Source: Roseburia intestinalis L1-82 | Lineage (GTDB): Bacteria > Bacillota > Clostridia > Lachnospirales > Lachnospiraceae | Direction of reading: 5' to 3' | Length of the DNA stretch: 64,000 nt | Assembly (NCBI RefSeq): GCF_900537995.1 | Contig: NZ_LR027880.1 | Span: forward strand, 1,496,001 to 1,560,000 | Shown: piece after piece, positions 2 through 9,351 of the stretch | Numbering within the stretch: position 1 is the first letter of the stretch | Layout of the letters: the number at the start of each line of letters is the position of its first letter | Translations under genes and position numbers: made by a program | The notes under the pieces: model-generated | The model's input: the letters and a program-made list of their open reading frames with translations, nothing else | What the model was told of the DNA's origin: nothing | Database searches by the model: none

Positions 2-3000
2 GTATTTGATTCTAAGGATACAGCTTACAAATCAGTATACGGTGCGGTGGCAACCGGAGAGGAAGTTACCTACTCCATCGATACCGGAGATGATGTTACT
101 GCAGTCAAACTGGTTGTAAAAGGTGTGGAAAAGAAAACACTTTCCATGAAAAAAACAGCGGGTGCGGAAGATGGAAAACAGAGATGGTCTGTTACTACAA
201 GCTATGACAGACTTGGAGAATACCAGTATTTCTTTGCAGTATATAATGAGACGGCAGTGGTAATGTATGGCGATGATGACGGATATTACGGAACCGGTAT
301 GGCAACAGATTTATTAAGCCTGTTACCGTATGATCAGATCGTATATCAGTCAGGTTATAAGACACCGGACTGGATGAAAAATGCAGTGATCTACCAGATC
401 TTCCCGGATCGTTTCTATAATGGCAATGTGACAAACGATACCATCACTTCGGATGCAAGAGGTTCGGTGCAGTATGAATATATGAATGACTGGTATATTT
501 TACCGGAGAACCCGGAGCAGATCACATTACATCCGGATACCTATCCGACTTACGCATATAAGGGCGATGGAAACTGGAGCAATGAGATCTATGGTGGAGA
601 TTTAAAGGGTATTACAAAACGGATCGACTACTTAAAAGCACTTGGTGTTACCGTGATCTACTTAAACCCGGTATTTGAGTCCATTTCCAGCCACAGATAC
701 GATACAAGTGATTATAAAAACATTGATCCGATCCTTGGAACCCTCGGAGATTTTGAGGAACTCGTCAGTGTGGCAGAAGCGAATAATATGCATGTTGTAT
801 TGGATGGTGTATTCAATCATGTATCGGATGATTCTGTTTATTTTGACCGTTACTATGAGTATCTGGAAGATGGAACCGATACGATCGGAGCTTATCCTTA
901 CTGGGCATATGTATACGATGCCATGAGCGAGAAAAAGATTTCCAAAGAGGAAGCAGAAAAACAGGCAAAAGAATATTTTACGGCAGAGTATGGAATTACA
1001 AACTATGACTATACAGAATGGTTTGATGTATTTTCCGATACAACTTTAAAAGATGACAATGACGATGAAGTATGTGATTCCGTAGGACTTCGTGCCGGAA
1101 AACCAGTATATGGTTATGATGGATGGTGGGGTTATGACTCCATGCCGATCATCAAGGCAACGAACGGTTCCGAATATCAGACCGGTACCTGGGCAGAAGA
1201 AGTAATCGGAAAAAATGAGACAAGTAAGACCGCAGATAACAGTGTAACACAGTACTGGCTGTCAAAAGGAATGGACGGATGGAGACTCGATGTTGCCAAT
1301 GAAGTATCGGATGAGACCTGGCAGCACTTCCGTAAATCCGTGAAGGCACTTGACAGTGATAACGTGATCATCGGAGAAATCTGGACGGATGCGGTAAAAT
1401 ATCTGATGGGTGACATGTATGATTCCGTTATGAACTATATGTTCCGTGGAGCAGCGATCGCTTATGCAAAGGGCGGGAATTCCGCAGATGCATTAAATAC
1501 TTTAGAGCGTTTGAGAGAGCGTTATCCGAAAGAAGCATTTTATGCAATGATGAACCTTGTTGATTCTCATGATACAACACGTTTGTTATCTTACTTAGAT
1601 GGTATTGATGACGATAGAAAACAGAAAGAAATTGCAGAGGCATTCCCGACTTACGAGAATACTTCAGATGCAGCAAAACAGAAACAGTATTTAGTTGCGT
1701 TAATGCAGTTTACCTATGCAGGTGCACCGACGATCTACTATGGTGATGAGCTTGGCATGGTAGGTGCAGATGATCCAGATGACCGCCGTGCGATGATCTG
1801 GGGCGAAGGAAATGAGAATCTGGTAAAATGGTATGCAAAACTTGCTGCAATAAGAAGCAGTTACAGTGCATTGAGAACAGGCTCCGTAGAGCCGGTATAT
1901 GGCACAGATAAAGAAATTTTAGGCTATGTCAGAAGTGATGATTCGGATATCATGCTTGTTTTGATGAACAACAGTGCAGCAGACAAGTCTGTGACAGTAA
2001 ATGTTGCAGAACTTGGAATTAATGCAGCAGAACTTGCAGATGTGATCGCAGGTAATAGTTACAGTGCTGCAGGAGGCAGCGTGACGGTAACTGTTCCGGC
2101 ATACAATGGTGTGATCTTAACAGACAAGTGTCATGTAAAACAGGTTTCTGTGGATGAAGAAAACTTAAAACCTGGTTTTGATCCTACATATAAGATTAAG
2201 GCAGAAGAACGTGCAGTCAAAGTAACAGGAGTTTCACTGAAAAAGACAGAGATCACCTTACAGAAAGGTAAAACAGCAAAAATTTCTAAAAATGTAGTAG
2301 TAGCACCGCAGAATGCAACAAACACAGCAGTAAAATACAAGACTTCTGACAAAACAGTTGCTTCAGTTGACAAAGATGGTAATGTAACTGCAAATGCCAA
2401 AGGAACTGCAACAATTACCGTGACAACAAAAGACGGACTGTTTACATCAGAATGTAAAGTAACTGTAGGAGATCAGGTACAGGCAGCGAAGATCAAATTA
2501 AACAAGACAAAACTCAGCCTGAAAAAAGGAAAAACATATACCTTAAAGGCAACAGTCACTCCGAAGGATTGTACGGATAAAGCCGTGAAATGGAAATCTT
2601 CCAAATCCTCTGTTGTAAAAGTAGATGCAAACGGAAAAGTAACTGCAAAGAAAGCAGGAACCGCTACAATTACAGCTACCACAAAGAATGGTTTAAAGGC
2701 AACCTGTAAGATCACGGTTACAGATCCGGCAACCAAAGTATATCTGACACCGGCGATGAGTATCAAAAAGGGAAGTTCCGTAAAACTGACAGCATCTGTA
2801 TTTCCGAAGACAGCGACAGATAAACTTACATGGTCTACATCAAACAAAAAGGTAGTGACAGTAACAAAGAGCGGTAAGATCAAAGGAGTCAAAACAGGAA
2901 CAGCTACGATTACAGTTAAAACAACAAGTGGAAAGAAAGCAACCTGTAAAGTGACCGTTGTAAAGAGTAATAAGAAGTCAGCAGGTATTAAACTGAGTGC

Positions 3001-3457
3001 AAAGAAACTGACATTAAAGCAAAATGCAACAAAACAGCTGAAAGCTACTCTTGATAAGAATGCAACGGACAAAGTGACATGGAGCAGTTCTAACAAGAAA
3101 GTAGCTACAGTCGATAAAAATGGTGTTGTAACGGCTGTAAAGAAAGGTACTGTAACGATTACCGCAAAGACATCAGGTGGAAAGAAAGCAACCTGTAAAG
3201 TGACGGTAAAAGTACCGGCAACCAAGGTAAAATTAAACAAAACCAAGGCGACTGTTGCAAAGGGCAGGACTCTGACCTTAAAAGCGACTATGACACCTTC
3301 TTCCTCAACAGATAAACTTACCTGGACGAGTTCCAACAAAAAAGTGGCAACAGTTGATAAGAATGGTAAAGTAAAGGCGCTGAAAAAAGGAACAGCCACG
3401 ATTACTGTAAAAACTGCAAGTGGAAAGAAAGCAACCTGCAAAATTACTGTAAAATAA
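2..3457 (+). CDS. Secreted GH13 alpha-amylase/neopullulanase-type enzyme with five Big_2 repeats (5' end outside window)
   Basis: Starch/alpha-glucan hydrolase, probably cell-surface or secreted. The reading frame is open from base 2, so the true start and any signal peptide lie upstream. An N-terminal beta-rich segment resembles the CBM34-type domain of neopullulanases. The GH13 barrel shows all four family regions: DGVFNH (803-820), WRLDVANE with the nucleophile Asp codon at 1289, IIGEIW with the acid/base Glu codon at 1376, and DSHD with the final Asp at 1571. A C-terminal beta domain follows. From about 2220 to the stop there are five roughly 80-residue bacterial Ig-like (Big_2) repeats with the pattern VTWSSSNKKVATVD...GTATITV. 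The protein ends directly after the fifth repeat, with no LPxTG motif or membrane anchor. Exact substrate specificity within GH13 cannot be read from the motifs. Confidence 0.93.
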   Translation, partial: VFDSKDTAYKSVYGAVATGEEVTYSIDTGDDVTAVKLVVKGVEKKTLSMKKTAGAEDGKQRWSVTTSYDRLGEYQYFFAVYNETAVVMYGDDDGYYGTGMATDLLSLLPYDQIVYQSGYKTPDWMKNAVIYQIFPDRFYNGNVTNDTITSDARGSVQYEYMNDWYILPENPEQITLHPDTYPTYAYKGDGNWSNEIYGGDLKGITKRIDYLKALGVTVIYLNPVFESISSHRYDTSDYKNIDPILGTLGDFEELVSVAEANNMHVVLDGVFNHVSDDSVYFDRYYEYLEDGTDTIGAYPYWAYVYDAMSEKKISKEEAEKQAKEYFTAEYGITNYDYTEWFDVFSDTTLKDDNDDEVCDSVGLRAGKPVYGYDGWWGYDSMPIIKATNGSEYQTGTWAEEVIGKNETSKTADNSVTQYWLSKGMDGWRLDVANEVSDETWQHFRKSVKALDSDNVIIGEIWTDAVKYLMGDMYDSVMNYMFRGAAIAYAKGGNSADALNTLERLRERYPKEAFYAMMNLVDSHDTTRLLSYLDGIDDDRKQKEIAEAFPTYENTSDAAKQKQYLVALMQFTYAGAPTIYYGDELGMVGADDPDDRRAMIWGEGNENLVKWYAKLAAIRSSYSALRTGSVEPVYGTDKEILGYVRSDDSDIMLVLMNNSAADKSVTVNVAELGINAAELADVIAGNSYSAAGGSVTVTVPAYNGVILTDKCHVKQVSVDEENLKPGFDPTYKIKAEERAVKVTGVSLKKTEITLQKGKTAKISKNVVVAPQNATNTAVKYKTSDKTVASVDKDGNVTANAKGTATITVTTKDGLFTSECKVTVGDQVQAAKIKLNKTKLSLKKGKTYTLKATVTPKDCTDKAVKWKSSKSSVVKVDANGKVTAKKAGTATITATTKNGLKATCKITVTDPATKVYLTPAMSIKKGSSVKLTASVFPKTATDKLTWSTSNKKVVTVTKSGKIKGVKTGTATITVKTTSGKKATCKVTVVKSNKKSAGIKLSAKKLTLKQNATKQLKATLDKNATDKVTWSSSNKKVATVDKNGVVTAVKKGTVTITAKTSGGKKATCKVTVKVPATKVKLNKTKATVAKGRTLTLKATMTPSSSTDKLTWTSSNKKVATVDKNGKVKALKKGTATITVKTASGKKATCKITVK
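2220..3457 (+). repeat. Five tandem Ig-like (Big_2) coding repeats
   Basis: Five in-frame copies of an about 240-base unit form the C-terminus of the amylase. Near-identical stretches such as the one encoding SGKKATCKVTV recur in the last three copies. Lys-rich composition and the ATITV...CKVTV rhythm are typical of Big_2 domains that space or attach catalytic domains at the cell surface. The repeats create long spurious ORFs on the opposite strand. Confidence 0.85.
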
Positions 3458-3545: not shown

Positions 3546-3863
3546 CAACGTTAAAACAGTAAAGCGATGAAAGAGACTCTGATCTTCAGACGTCGACAGG
3601 AATACAGCGTCACCGACTGAGAGCGCTGTTTGAAAGAGAAGGTCAAGGGAACACTCTGGAGCAGACTGATTGAACAGGAATTTGCACGAGCGGTTGATCT
3701 TAAAAACAGCGGCAGTGGATCGAAAGTAGGTCAGTACGTGGGTGCGCGTTAAGCACAGAGAGCGGAAAGATGATGAGAACGACATCATTTTTCAATGCGG
3801 GTGGTACCGCGGGATACTAAGAGATTTCGCCCCGGAAAAGCATATGCTTTTCCGGGGTTTTTT
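3546..3863 (+). promoter_or_regulatory. T-box riboswitch upstream of the Asp-tRNA/GatCAB operon
   Basis: The leader carries the invariant T-box sequence at 3794-3812 (AATGCGGGTGGTACCGCGG, with the UGGU that pairs with uncharged tRNA acceptor ends), followed by an intrinsic terminator. In stem I, AGAG pairs with CTCT (3654-3657) and ATCTTC pairs with GAAGGT (3637-3642), leaving an internal loop whose 3' side ends in G-A-A-C-A. By the usual position, one purine before the lower helix, the specifier is AAC (Asn, 3650-3652). The overlapping GAA (Glu, 3649-3651) is shifted by one base. This fits control of a pathway that makes Asn-tRNA(Asn) by transamidation. Uncharged tRNA would favour the antiterminator and switch on the operon. 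Confidence 0.92.
3830..3863 (+). terminator. T-box regulated intrinsic terminator
   Basis: Hairpin with arms CCCCGGAAAAGC / GCTTTTCCGGGG followed by a run of T. It is mutually exclusive with the antiterminator formed by the T-box sequence just upstream. Confidence 0.88.
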
Positions 3864-3992: not shown

Positions 3993-5324
3993 ATGGAATT
4001 CATGACAGGTGTAAACAAAAAGGAAACCTTAGAGATCGGTGATTTACTGACCGGCAGCTATGAGGGAAAAAGTGTAAAAGTAAACGGAGCAGTGCATACC
4101 ATCCGTGATATGGGTGAAGTTGCATTTATCGTCTTAAGAAAGAGAGAAGGACTGCTCCAGTGTGTTTACGAAGAAGGAAAAACACAGTTTGACTTAAAAG
4201 ATTTAAAAGAGGCAGCAACGATTGAGGTGGAGGGAACCGTAAAACCGGAGGAACGTGCACCACACGGATTTGAGATCCGTCTGGATAAAATCAAGGTATT
4301 GTCCGAACCGGCTGCACCGATGCCGCTTGCAATCTCAAAATGGAAATTAAATACCTCCTTGGAGGCGAATTTAAACAACCGTGCGATCGCCCTTCGAAAT
4401 ATCAGGGAGCGTGCAAAATTCCGTATTCAGGAAGGTGTGGTACGGGGATTTCGTGATTTCTTATACAGTCAGGGGTTTACAGAGATCCATACACCAAAGA
4501 TCGGTGCAAAAAGTGCAGAGGGCGGGGCAAACCTGTTCCGGTTGGAATATTTTCACAGACCGGCAGTTTTACAGCAGAGTCCTCAGTTTTACAAACAGAT
4601 GATGGTCGGCGTATTTGACCGGGTATTTGAGACGGCGCCGGTATTCCGTGCAGAAAAACATAATACCAAACGTCACTTGAACGAGTACACCAGCCTTGAT
4701 TTTGAGATGGGATATATTGATGGATTTGAAGATATCATGGCGATGGAGACCGGATTTTTGCAGTATATGATCGCACTGCTCAAAAAAGATTATGCAGAGG
4801 AACTTCGGTTATTAGGCGTCACACTGCCGAACGTCGACAAAATTCCGACCGTGCGTTTCGATGAAGCAAAAGAAAAAGTGGCAGAAAAATATCACCGCCA
4901 GATCAGAAACCCATACGATCTTGAGCCGGAGGAGGAAGCACTCATCGGACAGTATTTCAAAGAAGAGTATGATGCGGATTTCGTATTTGTTACACATTAT
5001 CCATCCAAGAAACGTCCGTTTTACGCGATGGACGATCCGGCAGATCCGACTTATACCTTAAGTTTTGACCTCTTATATCAGGGACTTGAGATCACGACCG
5101 GTGGACAGCGTATCCACGATTACAACAAACTGATGGAAAAAATCGAAAAGCGTGGTATGGAGTCTGAGGGAATGGAACAGTATTTATCCGTATTCAAACA
5201 TGGCATGCCGCCACATGGTGGACTTGGAATCGGTTTAGAGCGTCTGACCATGAAATTAGTCGGTGAGGACAATGTTCGTGAAACCACTTTATTCCCTCGT
5301 GATTTAAGCAGATTAGAGCCGTAA
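3993..5324 (+). CDS. aspS2: Archaeal-type (probably non-discriminating) aspartyl-tRNA synthetase
   Basis: Charges tRNA with aspartate in the cytoplasm. At 443 residues it lacks the GAD insertion of the roughly 590-residue bacterial AspRS, so it is the archaeal/eukaryal-type enzyme (AspRS2). An OB-fold anticodon-binding domain covers about residues 15-105 and the class II catalytic core about 135-443. Motif 2 is around residues 218-241 (FRAEKHNTKRHLNEYTS) and motif 3 near the C-terminus (GGLGIGLERLTMKL). The ATG at 3993 has AAAGGAG ten bases upstream. It sits behind an Asn/Glu-type T-box and before gatC, gatA and gatB. From this I infer that it makes Asp-tRNA(Asn) as the substrate for GatCAB, with a standard AspRS elsewhere in the genome. 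tRNA(Asn) recognition itself is not demonstrated by the sequence. Confidence 0.93.
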   Translation: MEFMTGVNKKETLEIGDLLTGSYEGKSVKVNGAVHTIRDMGEVAFIVLRKREGLLQCVYEEGKTQFDLKDLKEAATIEVEGTVKPEERAPHGFEIRLDKIKVLSEPAAPMPLAISKWKLNTSLEANLNNRAIALRNIRERAKFRIQEGVVRGFRDFLYSQGFTEIHTPKIGAKSAEGGANLFRLEYFHRPAVLQQSPQFYKQMMVGVFDRVFETAPVFRAEKHNTKRHLNEYTSLDFEMGYIDGFEDIMAMETGFLQYMIALLKKDYAEELRLLGVTLPNVDKIPTVRFDEAKEKVAEKYHRQIRNPYDLEPEEEALIGQYFKEEYDADFVFVTHYPSKKRPFYAMDDPADPTYTLSFDLLYQGLEITTGGQRIHDYNKLMEKIEKRGMESEGMEQYLSVFKHGMPPHGGLGIGLERLTMKLVGEDNVRETTLFPRDLSRLEP

Positions 5325-5446: not shown

Positions 5447-6361
5447 GTGAAACATTTGGGAACAAAAACAATCGAAACAAGACGTCTTGTTTTAAGACGA
5501 TTTACACTTTCCGATGCAGAACCGATGTACCGCAACTGGGCATCGGATCCGGAAGTGACAAGATATCTGCTGTGGCCGGCACACGAGAGCGAAGAGGAGA
5601 CAAAAGGTATTTTGAAAGGCTGGATTGCCGCCTATGAGAAACCGGAAAAATATGAATGGTGTATCGAATTAAAAGAGATCGGTGAGGCAATCGGCAGCAT
5701 CGGTGTGGTGATGGTCAATGAAAAAGTACAGTCCATGGAAGTCGGCTATTGTTTAAGCTGCGATTACTGGCATAAGGGAATCATGTCCGAGGCGCTTTCA
5801 GCCGTTGTGGAATACCTGACCAATGAAGTCGGCGCACGCAGGATCCAGGCGAGATGTGATACCAGAAATCCATACTCTGCGAAAGTGATGGAAAAATGTG
5901 GATTAAAATATGAAGGAACTGCGATCCAGGCAGAGTGGAACAACTCCGGGGCAGGGGATGTTGCCTGCTATGGTCTGGTTGTTGGACCGGTTGTTGTTGA
6001 AGAGCCGGAGGAAACCCTAGAACCGGAGATCGAAGAGGAAGAACCGAAAGTCATTAAAACAGGACGCAAAAATGAGATCTCAGACGAGACGATCGAGTAT
6101 GTCGGAATCCTTGCAAAATTAGAGCTGAATGAGGAAGAGAAAGAGCATGCAAAGAAAGATATGGAAGAAATGCTCAACTATATTGATAAATTAAATGAAC
6201 TTGACACCACAGGAGTGGAGCCGATGTCACATGTGTTCCCGGTAAACAATGTATTCCGGGAAGATGTAGTGACAAACGGAGACGGCAGCAAAGAGACGCT
6301 TTCGAATGCACCGGCACAGAAAGACGGTGGATTTAAAGTGCCAAAGACAATTGGAGATTAA
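5447..6361 (+). CDS. gatC: GNAT acetyltransferase-GatC fusion protein
   Basis: Two-domain protein of 304 residues. Residues about 10-178 are a GNAT N-acetyltransferase of the RimJ/RimL type ([19 protein letters not shown] at the start, [10 protein letters not shown] around 108-117 in the acetyl-CoA loop, [14 protein letters not shown] near 140). An acidic linker (residues 182-209, rich in Glu and Pro) leads to a complete GatC (210-304). GatC shows the usual [17 protein letters not shown] opening and the [17 protein letters not shown] ending. GatC stabilises the GatA-GatB amidotransferase. Start is GTG with AAAAGGAGAACAGCC upstream. GatC alone is normally about 95 residues, so the 205-residue extension is the odd feature. 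The substrate of the acetyltransferase is unknown; I see no stop or frameshift between the domains. Confidence 0.92.
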
Positions 6362-6441
6362 TCAGATTGCTCAAAGAACATTTTGTGCAGCAGGCAAAGA
6401 AAATGTTCGGATAAAAAGCAGGAGCAGGAATGGAGATTTAT

Positions 6442-7899
6442 ATGAATATTATGAGTTTGACTGCCGTGGAACTCGGCAAAAGAATAAAAGCAAAAGAAAT
6501 CTCAGTAGAGGAAGCTGTTACGGCGGCGCTTGACGCGATTGAGAAAAAAGAAAAACTCGTAAACAGCTTTGTGACAGTAGATAGAGAGGGAGCACTGAAA
6601 CGCGCAAAGGAAGTACAGAAACAGATTGATGACGGCACACTGACGGGGCCGCTTGCAGGTGTACCGGTTGCCATCAAAGACAATATGTGTACGAAAGATC
6701 TGCTTACCACCTGTTCTTCTAAGATTTTATATAACTTTATTCCGACCTACACGGCGGAGGCAGTTTTAAATCTGGAAAAAGCAGGGGCAGTTATTTTAGG
6801 AAAGACCAACATGGATGAGTTTGCCATGGGAAGCACGACAGAGACATCCGCTTATGGCGAGACAAAAAATCCGTGGAACACAGAGCATGTGCCGGGAGGT
6901 TCTTCGGGTGGCTCCTGTGCGGCGGTTGCAGCAGAGGAATGTGTCTTTGCACTTGGATCAGATACCGGCGGTTCCATCCGTCAGCCGAGTTCCTTCTGCG
7001 GCGTGACCGGAATCAAGCCGACCTACGGAACGGTATCACGTTACGGACTGATCGCTTACGGTTCATCCTTAGACCAGATCGGACCGGTCGCAAAAGATGT
7101 GACAGACTGTGCCACGATATTAGAGGCGATCGCTTCTTATGATACGAAGGACTCCACTTCTGTAAAAAGAGAAGATTACGATTTTACCAGTGCACTGGTG
7201 GATGATGTTGCAGGAATGAAGATCGGTATTCCGCGTGATTATTTCGGGGAGGGTTTAGATCCGGAAGTAAAAGCAGCAGTTTTACAGGCAGCAGAGGAAT
7301 TAAAGAAAAAGGGCGCCATCGTGGAAGAGTTTGACTTAAGTCTGGTAGAATATGCGATCCCTGCATATTATGTTATCGCCTGTGCAGAGGCAAGTTCCAA
7401 CCTGGCAAGATTTGACGGTGTCAAATATGGTTACCGCACCAAAGAATATGAGGGACTTCACAACATGTACAAAAAATCCCGTTCTGAAGGATTCGGGTCG
7501 GAGGTAAAACGCCGTATCATGCTTGGCTCTTTCGTGCTGAGCAGCGGTTATTATGATGCATATTATCTGAAAGCACTCCGCACCAAGGCGTTGATCAAAC
7601 AGGCATTTGATAAGGCATTTGAAAAATATGATGTCATTTTAGGACCGGCGGCACCGACCACTGCACCAAAACTGGGACAGTCCTTAAGTGATCCAATCAA
7701 GATGTATTTAGGAGATATTTACACGATTTCCGTAAATCTTGCCGGCTTACCGGGAATTTCACTGCCGTGCGGCAAAGATAAAAACGGTCTGCCGATCGGG
7801 TTACAGCTTATTGGAAACTGTTTTGAAGAGAAGAAGATCATCCGCGCGGCATATGCATTTGAACAGACAAGAACCTATGAGCACAGCCCGCTTGCATAG
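6442..7899 (+). CDS. gatA: Asp-tRNA(Asn)/Glu-tRNA(Gln) amidotransferase subunit A
   Basis: Glutaminase subunit of GatCAB; it releases ammonia from glutamine for transfer to the misacylated tRNA. Amidase-signature family with the Ser-cisSer-Lys triad: Lys79 in VAIKDN, Ser154 in GGSSGGS and nucleophile Ser178 in DTGGSIR. Numbering from the ATG at 6442 reproduces the triad numbers known for the S. aureus enzyme, and GGAG sits six bases upstream, so I prefer this start to the ATG at 6430. Length 485 residues, normal for GatA. It follows the GNAT-GatC fusion after 80 bases and precedes gatB by 21 bases; clearly one operon. Confidence 0.96.
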   Translation: MNIMSLTAVELGKRIKAKEISVEEAVTAALDAIEKKEKLVNSFVTVDREGALKRAKEVQKQIDDGTLTGPLAGVPVAIKDNMCTKDLLTTCSSKILYNFIPTYTAEAVLNLEKAGAVILGKTNMDEFAMGSTTETSAYGETKNPWNTEHVPGGSSGGSCAAVAAEECVFALGSDTGGSIRQPSSFCGVTGIKPTYGTVSRYGLIAYGSSLDQIGPVAKDVTDCATILEAIASYDTKDSTSVKREDYDFTSALVDDVAGMKIGIPRDYFGEGLDPEVKAAVLQAAEELKKKGAIVEEFDLSLVEYAIPAYYVIACAEASSNLARFDGVKYGYRTKEYEGLHNMYKKSRSEGFGSEVKRRIMLGSFVLSSGYYDAYYLKALRTKALIKQAFDKAFEKYDVILGPAAPTTAPKLGQSLSDPIKMYLGDIYTISVNLAGLPGISLPCGKDKNGLPIGLQLIGNCFEEKKIIRAAYAFEQTRTYEHSPLA

Positions 7900-7920: not shown

Positions 7921-9351
7921 ATGAGTAAAATATATGAAACTGTCATTGGACTTGAGGTCCATGTTGAGTTAGCAACGAAAACAAAAATCTTCTGCGGCTG
8001 TTCCACGGCATTCGGCGGTGCACCAAACACACATACCTGTCCGGTCTGTACCGGTATGCCGGGTTCCCTTCCGGTGTTGAACCGTCAGGTGGTGGAATAT
8101 GCGATGGCAGTGGGAATTGCCACAAACTGCAGTATTACCCAGTACTGTAAATTTGACCGTAAAAACTATTTTTACCCGGATAACCCGCAGAACTACCAGA
8201 TCTCCCAGTTATATCTGCCCATCTGCAGAAACGGTGGTGTCGAGATCGAGACAGCAGCCGGAAAGAAGATTATTGGTATCCATGAGATCCATATGGAAGA
8301 GGATGCCGGAAAACTGGTGCATGACGAGTGGGAGGATGTCTCCATCGTAGATTACAACCGTTCCGGTGTACCGCTGATTGAGATCGTATCCGAGCCTGAT
8401 ATGCGTTCCGCGGAGGAGGTTATCGCATATCTTGAAAAGCTGCGCATGATCATCCAGTATCTGGGAGCATCTGACTGTAAATTAAACGAAGGTTCCATGC
8501 GTGCCGATGTCAACCTGTCCGTCCGTGAAGCCGGCGCAAAGAAGTTTGGAACCCGTACCGAGATGAAAAACTTAAACTCCTTTAAAGCGATCGCAAGAGC
8601 TATCGAGGGAGAGCGTGCACGTCAGATCGAACTGCTTGAAGCCGGAAAGAAGATCGTGCAGGAGACACGCCGCTGGGATGACAATAAGGAATCTTCCCAT
8701 GCAATGCGTTCCAAAGAGGATGCACAGGATTACCGTTATTTCCCGGAGCCGGATCTCGTCCCGATCGTGATCAGCGATGAGTGGATCGCAAAAGTAAAGG
8801 CAAACCAGCCGGAACTGCGCACGGAAAAATTAGAGCGTTACCAGAGAGAGTTTGATCTTCCAAAATACGATGCCGAGATCATCACAGGACACAAAAAATT
8901 TGCAGACCTGTTTGAGGCGGCAACCGAGCTTTGCGGCAAACCGAAAAAAGTGTCCAACTGGATCATGGTCGAAACTATGCGTCTGTTAAAGGAAAACAAC
9001 ATGGATCCGGAAGACATCCGTTTTTCTCCGGTCAATCTTGCAAAACTGATCAATCTTGCCGATTCCGGTTCCATTACAAACACGGTCGCAAAGGAAGTAT
9101 TCGAACTGATCTTTAAAGATGACATTGATCCGGAAAAATATGTTGAAGAGAAAGGCTTAAAGACAGTCAACGACGAGGGTGCACTCCGTGAGACAGTACA
9201 GAAAATATTAGCAGAAAATCCACAGTCGGTTGAGGATTACCATAACGGCAAAGAAAAGGCAATCGGATTCTTAGTCGGACAGACCATGAAAGCCATGAAA
9301 GGAAAAGCAAACCCGGCGCTTGTGAACCAGATATTAAAAGAGTTACTGTAA
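7921..9351 (+). CDS. gatB: Asp-tRNA(Asn)/Glu-tRNA(Gln) amidotransferase subunit B
   Basis: tRNA-binding and amidating subunit of GatCAB. It phosphorylates or activates the misacylated aminoacyl-tRNA and transfers ammonia to give Asn-tRNA or Gln-tRNA. The N-terminal catalytic cradle starts YETVIGLEVHVEL and has the zinc-type cysteines CGCS and CPVC. The DNPQNYQISQ and MEEDAGKL motifs follow, then a YqeY-like tail domain at the C-terminus. At 476 residues the length is standard. The ATG at 7921 is preceded by GGAGGAATAGAC. Last gene of the T-box operon; a strong terminator follows. Confidence 0.97.
   Translation: MSKIYETVIGLEVHVELATKTKIFCGCSTAFGGAPNTHTCPVCTGMPGSLPVLNRQVVEYAMAVGIATNCSITQYCKFDRKNYFYPDNPQNYQISQLYLPICRNGGVEIETAAGKKIIGIHEIHMEEDAGKLVHDEWEDVSIVDYNRSGVPLIEIVSEPDMRSAEEVIAYLEKLRMIIQYLGASDCKLNEGSMRADVNLSVREAGAKKFGTRTEMKNLNSFKAIARAIEGERARQIELLEAGKKIVQETRRWDDNKESSHAMRSKEDAQDYRYFPEPDLVPIVISDEWIAKVKANQPELRTEKLERYQREFDLPKYDAEIITGHKKFADLFEAATELCGKPKKVSNWIMVETMRLLKENNMDPEDIRFSPVNLAKLINLADSGSITNTVAKEVFELIFKDDIDPEKYVEEKGLKTVNDEGALRETVQKILAENPQSVEDYHNGKEKAIGFLVGQTMKAMKGKANPALVNQILKELL

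Follow-up and report, generated by a model that had tools for sequence, protein, structure and literature searches.

Saad et al. reportedly described, in 2013, a two-codon T-box on the aspS-gatC-gatA-gatB operon of Clostridium acetobutylicum. The comparison genome used here, which we take to be that of C. acetobutylicum because it has a 100% match to a thiolase sequence of that species, encodes an archaeal-type aspS, gatC, gatA and gatB behind a T-box that carries GAA-G-AAC-A and UGGC. Its tRNA(Glu) has A73 and thus forms a C-A mismatch with UGGC, and its tRNA(Asn) was not found in the genome stretches retrieved. The G that precedes AAC is predicted to be free with a probability of 0.98, although the same model pairs part of the AAC itself. 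Binding of both tRNAs, the Asn and the Glu species, has been reported for this T-box in vitro as well as in vivo (PMC4052509, in the part of the text available), so the precedent to which the original prediction appealed is a sound one, both the leader and its operon having been retrieved here.

The portion of PMC2494555 at hand places one of the three aspS genes of C. acetobutylicum under T-box control, and states that the genomes analysed there, that of C. acetobutylicum included, lack GlnRS, with the exception of C. perfringens. It also holds that T-box specifiers in front of ligase genes always correspond to the amino acid of the ligase; the Asn specifiers that we counted in front of aspS do not follow this statement, and would suit an AspRS with tRNA(Asn) among its substrates. 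A T-box may also answer to a tRNA other than its main one, since lower charging of tRNA(Asn) is described as a partial inducer of the lysK T-box of B. cereus (PMC2916919, in the text accessible to us). Here we analyse a leader of Roseburia intestinalis L1-82 in which a Glu and an Asn codon overlap, within a window of 64,000 nucleotides (the whole stretch of DNA that was analysed, to which positions refer unless stated otherwise).

The leader, its operon and the tRNAs of the genome

The leader was detected on the forward strand at positions 3558-3837 as a match along the full length of the T-box model RF00230 (model positions 1-219, 71.9 bits, E 1.1e-15, cmscan) and was recovered in a whole-genome search with the same model, which returned 16 matches, 9 of them above the cut-off. 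Because 71.9 bits falls short of the RF00230 gathering score of 93, the leader is missed by a default Rfam scan. It shares with the model a T-box sequence, with the UGGU of the antiterminator bulge at 3802-3805 inside GGGUGGUACCGCGG (3799-3812), and a competing intrinsic terminator at 3829-3863, a hairpin of 13 pairs (8 GC) followed by a T run. Together with the covariance match, these features bear out that the leader is a T-box. The U of UGGU is found in 25 of 26 relatives and replaced by C in one. The specifier AAC (3650-3652) is followed by the purine A3653 and suits the tRNA(Asn) charging operon that follows.

Unlike the model, the leader has no AGUA strand in its specifier loop, and its distal loop UCACCGACUGAGAG (3610-3623), which is strongly conserved among relatives, departs from the GGUG of RF00230. 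The S-turn formed by AGUA and GAA above the specifier is usual in T-boxes, yet not strictly defining; here ACUCU faces GGG instead. Of this genome's 15 other T-box matches, 12 show AGUA by eye. Two weak matches (L015 and L016, genome positions 125726-126097) overlap each other in front of a gene read by eye as metG, and perhaps constitute a tandem or expanded leader.

The genes expected behind the leader were confirmed by profile searches, all on the forward strand. They comprise an archaeal-type aspartate--tRNA(Asn) ligase (ND-AspRS, 3993-5324; NF003483 585.5 bits and TIGR00458 429.1 bits, both over cut-off), a 304-aa protein in which a GNAT acetyltransferase-like domain is fused to GatC (5447-6361; residues 211-302 match TIGR00135 over its cut-off, with 91.7 bits), gatA (6430-7899; TIGR00132 634.6 bits) and gatB (7921-9351; NF004012 675.8 bits), the last being the single GatB match of the genome at E <= 0.001. 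The N-terminal part of the fusion protein matched acetyltransferase models, all below their cut-offs, and among the 28 of 30 family loci with a detected GatC the fusion was seen only in this genome. Directly upstream of the leader, positions 47-3457 appear by eye to encode an alpha-amylase-like protein with several Ig-like repeats.

Both overlapping codons correspond to tRNAs encoded in the genome, a tRNA(Asn) with anticodon GUU, U1-A72 and G73, and a tRNA(Glu) with anticodon UUC and A73. It follows from these discriminator bases that UGGU would pair with both acceptor ends, by Watson-Crick pairing for tRNA(Glu) and by wobble for tRNA(Asn), while UGGC fits tRNA(Asn) only. Of 21 genomes examined, the 18 others in which tRNA(Glu) UUC was readable all have A73 in it, and the 12 in which tRNA(Asn) was read all have G73. 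GlnRS and GluRS are both present in R. intestinalis (profile search, both over cut-offs), as are AsnA and AsnRS, the latter recognised on the strength of residues 1-242. The genome also encodes two other synthetases of class II (605 and 651 aa), which their lengths suggest are probably the bacterial-type AspRS and LysRS. By position, AsnRS, AsnA, GluRS and GlnRS all lie away from the 16 T-box matches. Because GlnRS is present, the single GatCAB is not needed for Gln-tRNA(Gln) and no Glu-tRNA(Gln) route is required; the gene content suggests that GatCAB would be needed neither for tRNA(Gln) nor, strictly, for tRNA(Asn).

The specifier loop and the helix abutting it

The site reads G3649 A3650 A3651 C3652 A3653 C3654, so that the predicted overlap of a Glu codon GAA (3649-3651) with an Asn codon AAC (3650-3652) is exact to the letter. 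The motif GGAACACTC occurs once in the window, where 0.22 occurrences are expected by chance. For comparison within the family, 120 genomes were queried with AspRS and the best 30 loci were taken. A leader with GGAAC, a part of GGAACACTC, was present at 27 of these 30 loci, namely in all 26 aligned same-gene leaders and in L065, which has the same GGGAAC and UGGU; no T-box was found with the motifs used at L066, L073 and L074. The AAC specifier is conserved in 26/26 aligned leaders. A purine follows it in every one of them, as it does in 32 of the 33 Asn leaders collected in addition.

The minimum free energy fold of the leader and the RNAalifold consensus of the 26 Stem I sequences gave the same structure for the specifier region. 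A lower helix pairs 3572-3575 (AGAG) with 3654-3657, and an upper helix pairs 3577-3580 (CUCU) with 3646-3649 through C3577-G3649, U3578-G3648, C3579-G3647 and U3580-A3646. This leaves A3650-A3653 as the specifier loop, faced on its 5' side by a lone unpaired A3576 where the usual AGUA strand is absent. The folds left AAC unpaired in the specifier loop but placed G3649 in a helix. They did not bear out the original placing of an open GAAC directly next to the lower helix, from which AAC is in addition separated by A3653.

In the alignment of 26 leaders, all four pairs of the lower helix changed on both sides, with 97.1% of cells paired, and so did pairs 3579-3647 (columns 19-98, both sides changed in 2) and 3580-3646 (columns 20-97, both sides changed in 9, unpaired in 5). 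The covariation score was reached by none of 500 shuffles; the number of further pair types was not exceptional (159/500 shuffles). Column pair 18-99 is UG in 26/26. At C3577-G3649 (columns 17-100) we counted CG in 24 leaders, UG in one and an unpaired combination in one, so that this pair does not itself covary and is supported by its position and conservation.

Folding predictions, which are secondary-structure models that ignore tertiary motifs, gave G3649 an unpaired probability of 0.037 and a cost of about 2.3 kcal/mol to free it, against 0.98-1.0 for the bases of AAC. Over the 26 leaders, the G before the codon (position -1) had a median predicted unpaired probability of 0.16 and was mostly free (>0.5) in 7.

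Ten further leaders of the same architecture were found in the class, all with GACU facing GGAAC or GGGAAC, in front of a bacterial-type aspS in eight cases, an archaeal-type aspS in one and hisS in one. The 26 aligned and these 10 leaders together have -1 G in 36/36 and a C opposite it in 34/36. The unusual feature is a base-paired helix abutting the codon where an S-turn would be usual. It is not confined to one gene or family, and leaders of both archaeal-type and bacterial-type aspS, in several families, carry a specifier loop of this kind. No description of a paired specifier loop lacking the S-turn was found in the literature searched, of which coverage was partial.

Two other groups of leaders were noted in passing. 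Five short T-boxes in front of bacterial-type aspS (L115, L118, L285, L290 and L301) carry GACUCGG and GGGAAC(A/G)CU. Judged by eye, the lower part of Stem I seems to be missing from them, and in three TATAAT lies close upstream. Three Asp (GAC) leaders of one family (L105, L106 and L284) are also without AGUA by eye; L105 and L106, but not L284, have a -1 base able to pair with the 5' strand, and L106 lies upstream of a hisS-like frame (both by eye).

tRNA specificity of the leader

The leader, its conservation, the covarying helices, the tRNA sequences and the gene set were all computed here, and we consider that they describe a transcriptional T-box which probably answers physiologically to tRNA(Asn) only. 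What is already established for other T-boxes, from which both the tRNA response and the direction of switching are taken, suggests that uncharged tRNA(Asn) would pair through its GUU anticodon with AAC (3650-3652), and its 3' end (G73, then CCA) would pair with UGGU (3802-3805), a G-U wobble included. The antiterminator would then form instead of the terminator at 3829-3858 and aspS-gatCAB would be transcribed, its products making Asp-tRNA(Asn) and then amidating it to Asn-tRNA(Asn). G3649 would end the upper helix, next to the codon, and would not serve as the first letter of another codon that is read. Several findings count against a response to tRNA(Asn) only: UGGU would form a Watson-Crick pair with A73 of tRNA(Glu) and only a wobble with G73 of tRNA(Asn), and the one reported dual leader, that of C. 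acetobutylicum, matches the acceptor end of tRNA(Glu) worse than the present leader does. The 7 of 26 leaders in which the -1 G is predicted to be mostly free, the absence of covariation at C3577-G3649 and, over all leaders taken together, the excess of -1 G in Asn over non-Asn leaders weigh in the same direction.

The alternative that fares best, although we regard it as unlikely, is a dual-specificity T-box. AAC would be read by tRNA(Asn), and GAA by tRNA(Glu) once C3577-G3649 had opened and the frame had moved by one base; expression would rise with either of the two in its uncharged form. The exact overlap at 3649-3652, the encoded tRNA(Glu) UUC with an A73 that matches UGGU, the invariant -1 G of the 26 aligned leaders and L065, and the dual binding reported for C. 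acetobutylicum, with the same operon and GAAC (PMC4052509, same part), all speak for it. Against this, G3649 is predicted to be paired, where its C. acetobutylicum counterpart is predicted to be free; the GAA frame is followed by C3652 and not by the usual purine; and GlnRS is present here, while C. acetobutylicum is reported to be without it (PMC2494555, portion at hand). Somewhat less likely again is that C3577-G3649 works as a frame switch, the closed pair exposing AAC to tRNA(Asn) and the opened pair GAA to tRNA(Glu), with the operon answering both despite GlnRS.

Further evidence against dual sensing comes from other Asn leaders. We collected 33 of these from Clostridia, preceding asnA (13), bacterial-type aspS (12), archaeal-type aspS (2) and hisS (6), the last group likely having aspS further on. 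The asnA leaders came from 70 asnA-linked regions (30 loci and 40 selected stretches), of which 14 contained a T-box motif and 13, L224 being the exception, a readable Stem I. With the 26 aligned leaders this gives 59, a count for which gene contexts were picked by eye and which excludes L065 and the C. acetobutylicum leader. The base before AAC is G in 54, T in 4 and C in 1; the five leaders without G (1 asnA, 2 aspS, 2 hisS) are unable to offer GAA. The -1 G is equally frequent in asnA leaders (12/13), and it is independent of the base facing the discriminator: UGGN is UGGU in 46 leaders and UGGC in 13, with -1 G in 43/46 and 11/13, respectively (p=0.30), and in six leaders -1 G goes together with UGGC, the tRNA(Glu) UUC of the respective genome having A73. 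These counts, the predicted pairing of G3649 and the presence of GlnRS speak against reading the overlap as a sign of dual specificity, as the original prediction had done. Because the overlap is real, conserved and common to the reported dual leader, some weak or conditional reading of Glu may nevertheless occur.

We also rejected UGGU as proof of dual sensing, as all 13 asnA leaders counted have UGGU too. Arguments from UGGN are weak in any case, because the mismatch between UGGC and A73 in C. acetobutylicum did not prevent the Glu binding reported for it (PMC4052509, same part).

A general preference for -1 G in T-box specifier loops, for stacking or geometry beside the codon, would call for neither another tRNA nor a strictly required pairing partner, and we hold it to be improbable. 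Non-Asn canonical leaders have -1 G in 23 of the 37 that could be parsed out of 48, a baseline that leans towards -1 G because its loci were picked by our own model R1. Among them Phe leaders have it in 13/15, where it would spell an overlapping Val codon. S-turn-type Asn leaders also have it (17/21), and in three of the four asnA leaders folded, which are of this type, it is predicted to be free. By contrast, it is found in 0/6 Thr leaders and in just 4/11 leaders of the R. intestinalis genome (11 of the 15 other matches, read by eye), and the facing C is kept in nearly all leaders of the paired-helix architecture. The -1 G is commoner in Asn (54/59) than in non-Asn leaders (23/37; p=0.001, rough owing to kinship within one family), and in S-turn-type Asn leaders alone the difference is p=0.16 against the non-Asn baseline and p=1.0 against Phe, values that kinship makes equally rough.

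Finally, a degenerate or chance T-box, to which the sub-threshold score and missing AGUA might point, is very improbable and was rejected, given a covariation score above all 500 shuffles, conservation at 27/30 family loci and an intact terminator and T-box sequence.

If tRNA(Asn) is the only tRNA that counts, overlapping codons in a specifier loop predict dual sensing poorly. This matters because one database alone lists 2,884 and 3,551 T-boxes with two or three possible frames (PMC7778990, in the part available).

Relation to described T-boxes

The asnA T-boxes of Clostridia resemble the R. intestinalis leader in combining an AAC specifier, preceded by G in 12/13, with UGGU (13/13). They differ from it in that asnA makes free asparagine and in that AGUA is present in those that were read.

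The C. acetobutylicum leader shares with that of R. intestinalis the order of the operon, with an archaeal-type AspRS first, and the G before AAC through which GAA overlaps. The two are built differently around the codon. C. acetobutylicum has the AGUA...GAA arrangement, a G predicted to lie outside a helix, and UGGC, whereas in R. intestinalis CUC/GGG pairs abut the codon and the T-box sequence has UGGU. They also differ in their gene content, as GlnRS, encoded by the R. intestinalis genome, is reportedly absent from C. acetobutylicum (PMC2494555, portion at hand); sensing of tRNA(Glu) therefore has a rationale in C. acetobutylicum that is missing in R. intestinalis.
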